Shown here one piece after another: positions 8,909 to 10,856 of a stretch of 44,788 nt of DNA (position 1 is its first letter; every line of letters begins with the position of its first letter). Made by a program: the position numbers and the translations under genes. The notes beneath the pieces were generated by a model that did not search any database, was not told where the DNA came from, and saw only the letters and a program-made list of their open reading frames with translations. The DNA is from Patescibacteria group bacterium (GTDB lineage Bacteria; Patescibacteriota; Doudnabacteria; UBA920), in assembly GCA_013387205.1 (NCBI GenBank), contig WARV01000013.1:1-44788 (forward strand). Reading direction: 5' to 3'.

Positions 8909-10252
8909 TTAATTCCTTACGAACTTATCAATTTTTTTACCTGCAAAAGCTTTTGGCATGGAAATGTTTTTGCCATTATCCATTTTCATGTCTAGCGGGC
9001 TGACGCGACGCAGTTCCTTTACAACCTCAGGTAAAACTTTTAGTACAAAATCCAATTGCTTTTTTGTGGTTGTTTTACCTAATGTAAACCTTATTGCGCC
9101 GTGCGCGTATTCGTAAGGCTTGCCTATGGCCAGAATCACGTGTGACGGATCCAGGCTCATTGAAGCGCAAGCGCTGCCAGTGGAAGCGGCAATACCATAA
9201 GAGTCCAAATACAAAAGCAGCGCTTCGCCTTCCACGTCTAAAAATGAAATGTTTATGTTATTGGGAAGCCTGGCTAAATACCGTTCTTTTTGGTTAAAAT
9301 CGCGGCCGCGATTTTTAGCAAACGGGCCGGGCCCGTTTAACACCGCCTTGGGGATTTTTTTTAGAATTTGTTTAATAAAGTAATCGCGAAGATCAGACTG
9401 CCGCTTGTTTTCTTTTTCCCTATTTTTCTGAGCAAGTTTTAAAGCCTCGGAAAGCCCTATTATTCCAGGCACATTTTCCGTGCCGCTTCGTAAATTTTTC
9501 TCCTGTCCGCCCCCAAAAATTATCGGCTTAAGCCTAACCCCGTTCCTGACAAATAAAAAGCCTGTTTGTTTAGGGCCGTAAATTTTACTGGCATTGACTG
9601 ACATTAAATCAACTCCCAAACGGTCAACGTTCAAATCCAAAGAGCCCGCAGCCTGGCAAGCATCCGTATGAAAGTATATTTTTGGCAAATTCTTCGCTTT
9701 CCGTCTTTCATTTTCCCCTCTTAGCCACTTGCCTATCTCCGCAATCGGCTCAATGGTTCCAATTTCATTATTAGCATATATGATGGAAATTAAAACCGTT
9801 TCCGGCCGTACGGCTTTTTTAATTTCCTCAAGCTTTACAAAACCAAATTCATCAACTCCGACCAAATCTGCCTGGATCCCTTCCTGGCGCAGCGCGTCAA
9901 TGGATTCCAAAACAGCATGATGCTCAATAGCAGAACTGATTATATGCGGCTTAGCGCCGCCTTCTGCAGCTGCCATACGCGCAGTACCAAACAGGCTCAA
10001 ATTAATGCTCTCGGTTCCGCCGGCCGTAAAAACTACCTCTTCAGGCCTGCAGCCGATAATGCCAGCAATAGTTTTTCTGGCGTTATCAACCGCAAAAGCA
10101 GCCTCTCTCCCCTGCTTATAAAGTGCGGATGGGTTGCCGAAAGAGCCAGACCAAAAAGGCTCCATGGCTTTTTTGACATTTATATCCAAAAAGGTTGTGG
10201 CCGCAAAGTCCAAATATATTAAATTTTTAGGCTTGGTGATTTTTGGTAGCAT
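8909..10252 (-). CDS. iscS: cysteine desulfurase (IscS/NifS)
   Basis: IYLDFAATTFLD, HTDACQAAGSLDLNVDRLGVDLMSVNASKIYGPKQTGFLFVR (PLP Lys), STGSACASMSLDPSHVILAIG; ATG at 10252 preferred over GTG at 10297, which lies inside leader hairpins. Confidence 0.9.
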   Translation of the reverse strand: MLPKITKPKNLIYLDFAATTFLDINVKKAMEPFWSGSFGNPSALYKQGREAAFAVDNARKTIAGIIGCRPEEVVFTAGGTESINLSLFGTARMAAAEGGAKPHIISSAIEHHAVLESIDALRQEGIQADLVGVDEFGFVKLEEIKKAVRPETVLISIIYANNEIGTIEPIAEIGKWLRGENERRKAKNLPKIYFHTDACQAAGSLDLNVDRLGVDLMSVNASKIYGPKQTGFLFVRNGVRLKPIIFGGGQEKNLRSGTENVPGIIGLSEALKLAQKNREKENKRQSDLRDYFIKQILKKIPKAVLNGPGPFAKNRGRDFNQKERYLARLPNNINISFLDVEGEALLLYLDSYGIAASTGSACASMSLDPSHVILAIGKPYEYAHGAIRFTLGKTTTKKQLDFVLKVLPEVVKELRRVSPLDMKMDNGKNISMPKAFAGKKIDKFVRN

Positions 10253-10253
10253 C

Positions 10254-10396
10254 CCCTGTAGAATTTCTTTGAGATTGTCCCGGTATAGCCGGGACACGAT
10301 AACGTTTAAATGTTAATTAACGATATTTATACCTTTGTAGAATCATCTTTGAGTGTTTGGGTATCACCCTTAAGTTCTCAAAGAAGCTCTACAGGG
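10254..10396 (-). promoter_or_regulatory. structured 5' leader of the isc operon with three mutually pairing arms
   Basis: Arms 10377-10396, 10336-10353, 10254-10273; hairpins at 10359-10369 (GGGT-ATC-ACCC) and 10277-10295 (GTCCCGG-TATAG-CCGGGAC). Confidence 0.65.
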
Positions 10397-10405
10397 CATA
10401 CAGAT

Positions 10406-10435
10406 ATTATACCAGGAACGGGACAATGAAACCAA
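10406..10435 (-). promoter_or_regulatory. putative sigma70-type promoter of the isc operon
   Basis: Minus strand TTGGTT-18-TATAAT (-10 at 10406-10411), placing the start ~10399, just before arm A. Confidence 0.6.
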
Positions 10436-10596
10436 CCTCGCTGCTGGCAGCTTAGGTATCAGGGCAGTTTCCTTATCAAAGTGACAGTTTGAGAAGCTAT
10501 GGCTTGGGCTTTGCCCAAGACAAGCTAGCTCCACTTTCTCACTTTATCTGGCCTCACCTTTCGCAGCAAGCTGCTTAGATTTAGGCCTTCCATAAT

Positions 10597-10856
10597 AAAA
10601 AACGCCTGATATTATCAGGACGTTAGGAAGAAGGAGAACTGGATCAACTGCCCCCGTGCGGAGAAACGCCCCTGCAGGAGGTTTGGCAGGGCTAACGTAA
10701 AACAGTTGCCGTTCATTAACATACATCCTCCTTCCTAACGGGTGCTGCCAGTAAAACTACAGTCTGGCAGCAAAGCCAAAGCAATAAAACCTTTACCCCA
10801 ACAAACAAGGCTAACCGCTTTGGCAAACTTTAAACTTAAAAACGAAAATCAAACTA
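10597..10856 (-). ncRNA. structured RNA of unknown class with its own promoter and terminator
   Basis: Promoter TTGTTT(10885-10890)-16-TATAAT(10863-10868); hairpin TGCTGCCAG...CTGGCAGCA (10743-10772); closing helix CGTTAGGAAG/CTTCCTAACG (10621-10630 / 10731-10740); terminator CCTGATA-A-TATCAGG + T6 (10597-10619). Confidence 0.55.

Follow-up and report, generated by a model that had tools for sequence, protein, structure and literature searches.

Positions 10254-10396 (minus strand) of a 44,788-nt stretch of Patescibacteria group DNA (contig WARV01000013.1, hereafter the window) very probably hold one copy of a non-coding, MITE-like mobile element that occurs in Ca. Doudnabacteria and their relatives. 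This assignment is based on dispersed copies, linked flanking duplications and element-free homologous sites (see below): the block is short, non-coding and bounded by terminal inverted repeats, its copies are dispersed and flanked by a target duplication, and the corresponding sites are empty in relatives. An earlier sequence-only reading had taken the block for an RNA switch of the isc operon, in which one 5' arm pairs with either of two partners. The structure is real and the function was misassigned: what lies before iscS is a MITE-like insertion instead of an iron-sulfur RNA switch. The features of this copy are as follows.

10406..10411, minus strand: TATAAT, predicted to be the -10 box of iscS in its original leaderless state, spaced as in element-free iscS
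10397..10400, minus strand: left target-site copy TATG, including the upstream ATG (10399-10397)
10370..10399, minus strand: predicted short upstream ORF (MPCRASLRT and stop), from the left ATG through arm A
10254..10396, minus strand: probable copy of the MITE-like element (143 bp; right arm of type GAAATTCT)
10377..10396, minus strand: arm A, left terminal inverted repeat, pairing with arm C; codons 2-7 of the upstream ORF
10336..10353, minus strand: arm B, interior alternative partner of arm A (duplex p 0.005), its sequence not conserved between copies
10277..10295, minus strand: GTCCCGG-CTATA-CCGGGAC, forming the interior hairpin; its counterpart in other copies differs in sequence
10254..10273, minus strand: arm C, right terminal inverted repeat, pairing with arm A with covariation
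10250..10253, minus strand: right target-site copy GATG, including the iscS start codon
8909..10252, minus strand: iscS/nifS-like cysteine desulfurase, the host gene (PF00266, E 5.5e-61)

The geometry proposed by the sequence-only reading was recovered on the minus strand in all its parts: TATAAT (10411-10406), arms A (10396-10377), B (10353-10336) and C (10273-10254), the interior hairpin (10295-10277) and the ATG (10252-10250). Over 20 positions A:C comprised 18 Watson-Crick pairs, one G-U and one C.A mismatch. With bulges allowed, the A:B duplex was also more stable than expected by chance (-18.9 kcal/mol, z -3.6, p 0.005), which an ungapped score did not reveal (p 0.48). The whole leader folded at -58.9 kcal/mol (z -8.6), a stability that none of 200 dinucleotide shuffles reached (-28.8 +/- 3.5). 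Homologues aligned from the codon at 10252, which places the iscS start at this ATG and not at the GTG at 10297 considered before. The spacing TATAAT-N6-ATG predicts a transcript start at ~10399, the A of the upstream ATG, as had been suggested; a two-hexamer promoter scan gave no full sigma-70 match. Inside the element, no TATAAT-like hexamer was found at the right spacing from the second ATG.

A DNA search combined with arm-pattern searches revealed seven intact copies in the genome that contains the window (G000; 1.30 Mb, 24 contigs), where the reversed patterns, used as control, gave zero matches. These copies precede iscS, clpC, a class-II aminoacyl-tRNA synthetase gene (glyS-like) and genes for a DUF218 protein, a HAD hydrolase, an AI-2E transporter and a glycosyltransferase; before an Hsp20 gene lies an eighth copy, degraded to arm C alone. 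Altogether 33 copies were collected from seven genomes of the Ca. Doudnabacteria order (G000 plus G003, G010, G020, G014, G011 and G025), with alaS, ligA, gatC, dnaX, lemA and genes for a tyrosine recombinase, an EngB-like GTPase and a penicillin-binding protein among the hosts in relatives. The copies were 106-153 bp long and ended in long imperfect terminal inverted repeats, with arms of about 20 nt (left, CCCWGTAGAGCTTCTTTG; right, CAAAGAA(ATTCT or GTCTT)ACWGGG). Within G000, the interiors of different copies reached 81% identity, but from one genome to another most were close to the shuffled background, a pattern that local bursts would produce. Arm matches outside Doudnabacteria, including Micrarchaeota and Marsarchaeota, were exact and had no C arm, and were discarded as chance. 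Viral contigs gave one arm match without a C arm and none for the right arm plus TATG.

Some copies were related across genomes. Copies L061 (G003) and L147 (G011), from two species of the same genus, precede different genes and form a subfamily with a common interior (71% identical). An old copy at Hsp20 genes is common to two genera (G000, C18 about 33032, L022 and L158; G010, C70, L067) and consists of arm C and the interior ATTAAGAATTGATTTTGCGA, the left arm having decayed in G000; this insertion may predate the split of the genera and have been retained. Two species (L074 in G020, L075 in G014) carry the element at the same penicillin-binding-protein start codon. These copies differ in right-arm type and in duplication (TATG/TATG and CATG/CATG, respectively) and may stem from independent insertions.

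The flanks of the copies indicate that the element arrived by insertion, since the 4-mers at both sides are linked: they were identical in 19 of the 33 copies against 11.5 when flanks were re-paired among copies (0/5000 trials as high). The 4-bp duplications were mostly TATG. The others, TTGA/TTGA (two copies, each at a TTGACA -35-like box), TTTG/TTTG, ATGA/ATGA and CATG/CATG, are the decisive cases for insertion. Mismatches within the duplications leaned one way, with CATG at the left and TATG at the right in five copies; the target duplication is 4 bp, possibly only 3 bp.

Homologous sites without the element were found in relatives. Homologues of iscS occurred in 21 of 22 family genomes, and only the copy in the window carried the element. 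Counted by gene, clpC lacked it in 19 relatives and iscS in about 20, and dnaX homologues also provided element-free sites. The element-free iscS of G002, G020 and G021 reads TATAAT-N6-ATG and that of G007 TAGAAT-N6-ATG; the left flank in the window, TATAAT-ATCTGT-ATG, has the same spacing. To judge from sequence, the leaderless iscS of these relatives is the probable empty site of the present insertion, the element-free sites coming from other genera and not from sister strains. The gene is leaderless across several genera of the family (G002, G007, G020 and G021), and leaderless starts look common in this family.

The right-hand ATG was the start of an open gene in 25 of the 33 copies. The expected share was about 30% (27 gene-start YATG versus 64 other intergenic YATG sites), giving a binomial P of about 1e-7; this expectation, derived from crude gene calls in the window (45 kb), is the least secure figure of the analysis. 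The constant orientation of the element follows from its directional target. Copies away from genes also exist and are flanked by TTGA or TTTG duplications. Among the collected copies none was found inside coding sequence, and bypass or intron-like removal was rejected on this ground.

Across element copies, A:C covaried. Among 24 distinct arm pairs, 11 of the 20 A:C base pairs were altered on both sides, and 31 compensatory cells were counted compared with 9.0 +/- 2.3 after shuffling, a significance that is overstated because the copies have a common lineage; the signal was lost when the register was slid. Compensations in single copies, which are independent of lineage, occurred at position 8 in L068, 13 and 15 in L073, 17 in L069/L070 and 18 in L146. 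A single mismatch, at position 9 or 11 and adjoining a G-U or A-U at position 10, persisted in nearly every copy. In the interior, partners of arm A paired better than shuffled interiors did (mean z -2.0 in G000 and -2.0 in G010), whereas those of arm C did not (-0.1 and -0.5, respectively); arm A, not C, had an interior partner in 11 of 13 G000/G010 copies, at places that differed between copies. Arm B is therefore a tendency and not a conserved arm, a weak real feature, and it was retained because energy scoring that allowed bulges reversed the ungapped null result for both genomes. Since arm A, and not C, has such an alternative partner in most copies of two genomes, an RNA-level role for the element is plausible.

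Four other explanations were weighed against insertion of a MITE-like element. The proposed isc-specific switch, an RNA replacing IscR, has real geometry at iscS in its favor, and we consider it next to impossible: the same element precedes clpC, tRNA synthetase genes, ligA, dnaX and other genes, and all other family iscS homologues examined lack it. An iron-sulfur function is unsupported given these unrelated hosts and element-free homologues, the lack of an interior core common to the copies, the insertion duplications, and the Rfam covariance models, which gave nothing credible at gathering or relaxed thresholds. Neither conservation at iscS nor control of isc by an RNA in place of IscR was thus borne out; the fold may still influence, in a generic way, how each host gene is translated. 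A broader version, in which many genes recruited a trans-acting regulon leader (a riboswitch, an RNA thermometer or a protein-binding leader) whose A:B / A:C exchange gates the start codon, would account for the compensatory changes, the single central mismatch kept beside a G-U, the interior partner peculiar to arm A and the position at start codons. It is nevertheless unlikely, as there are copies away from genes with TTGA or TTTG duplications, the target genes are unrelated, their orthologues in relatives do without the element, the interior has no conserved core and Rfam has no match. As for the hallmarks of a riboswitch, covarying helices were present for A:C only, and neither an interior core nor retention among orthologues of one pathway was seen.

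The other two explanations concern the arms themselves. In most start-codon copies CCC is preceded in frame by ATG or GTG, and this frame alone is always open through arm A, so that the upstream ORF, MP(C/S)RASL, might be a leader peptide that stalls ribosomes and thereby controls A:C. Such an attenuator is very improbable: the target duplication already accounts for the ATG, the C23 copy has a disrupted frame, the peptide varies freely beyond arm A, and amino-acid changes follow the pairing of the stem (e.g., R to I in L068, compensated in C). Template switching in replication is a known mutation mechanism that corrects long imperfect palindromes, and the compensatory changes could be mere quasi-palindrome correction without functional meaning. 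We regard this as somewhat more probable than a regulon leader and still doubtful, because correction should erase the central mismatch and the G-U, and about 23 of the 24 distinct arm pairs keep one. The MITE-like element itself is not a perfect fit to a plain DNA MITE, whose needs are exceeded by the conserved pairing, the central mismatch and the A-specific alternative partner. A speculative extension, to which we give only a small chance, is a transposable translation regulator: its machinery would actively seek out translation start sites, and it would carry an RNA with conserved refolding (A:B to A:C), each fresh insertion bringing its host gene under one and the same structural control.

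How a gene could survive insertion of the MITE-like element at its start codon may be pictured as follows. The insertion split a leaderless iscS between the -10 box and the ORF, the duplication re-creating the ATG. The transcript would begin at the left ATG and fold into A:C, perhaps by way of A:B, with the stem ending beside the second ATG. The left ATG would keep the old initiation signal, either a leaderless ATG or a Shine-Dalgarno sequence plus ATG, and would drive the short upstream ORF, whose first seven codons would correspond to ATG plus arm A. A ribosome on arm A would exclude A:C and so free the second ATG, otherwise located beside or within the stem. Alternatively, RNase III could cut the stem and leave a nearly leaderless iscS mRNA. 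By either route, expression of the host gene would continue and could be modulated. By reading, the context of the left ATG was leaderless in about 14 start-codon copies and Shine-Dalgarno-like in several others, and RNase III was present in all 10 genomes tested. In one copy before ligA (L060, G003) the upstream ORF runs in frame into the gene, a possible N-terminal extension of the ligase.

IS1380 / piggyBac-type ends have CCC termini and 4-5 bp duplications, and the present element resembles them in its CCC termini and 4-bp duplication; an IS1380-type transposase was absent from 49 genomes of the order. The element also resembles REP elements associated with RAYT (Y1) in being a dispersed hairpin with GTAG near the end. 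Unlike REP, it has a linked target duplication, and IS200-type / Y1 transposases did not track it, being absent from G003, the genome richest in copies. The fetched loci of these draft genomes contained no long element with the same ends, and the draft genomes yielded no transposase or autonomous partner.

The Correia / NEMIS elements of Neisseria are MITEs of about 100-155 bp with terminal inverted repeats near 25 bp and a target duplication, and their transcripts fold into long stems that are cut by RNase III (PMC2229807, PMC10969869). The present element is alike in size, terminal inverted repeats and target duplication. However, Correia has TA termini (PMC2229807), whereas the present element begins with CCC and ends with GGG, its duplication is usually TATG and its site is a start codon; the TA termini and TA target of Correia / ERIC were not found here, the ends being CCC/GGG and the targets TATG, TTGA and TTTG. 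ERIC, RUP and RPE are likewise small dispersed non-coding hairpins, some in transcribed leaders and some with short ORFs (PMC2229807), which differ from the present element in sequence and target. RPE insert in frame within genes, in contrast to the present element, which was not seen in coding sequence. A literature search pairing Patescibacteria with miniature inverted repeats found none, which is no proof of novelty, and a MITE review that was searched did not mention start-codon insertion with ATG duplication (0 occurrences of 'start codon').

If this reading is right, Candidate Phyla Radiation bacteria have a MITE-like family that inserts, unusually, exactly at the start codon and duplicates it. 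Essential genes (tRNA synthetase, dnaX, ligA) would stay open and yet gain a folded leader, and a leaderless gene would become leadered in a single step, providing natural before/after pairs for studying translation start in little-studied bacteria. It would also be a warning that transposon ends may pass for elegant leaders with alternative pairing.

Another structured region lies nearby in the window, on the minus strand at 10590-10790. It contains a long stem (CGTTAGGAAGGAGGA...TCTCCTTCTTCCTAACG) followed by a terminator-like hairpin and a T run (z -3.9); no Rfam model matched this region, which may encode a small RNA, 6S-like or of another kind.
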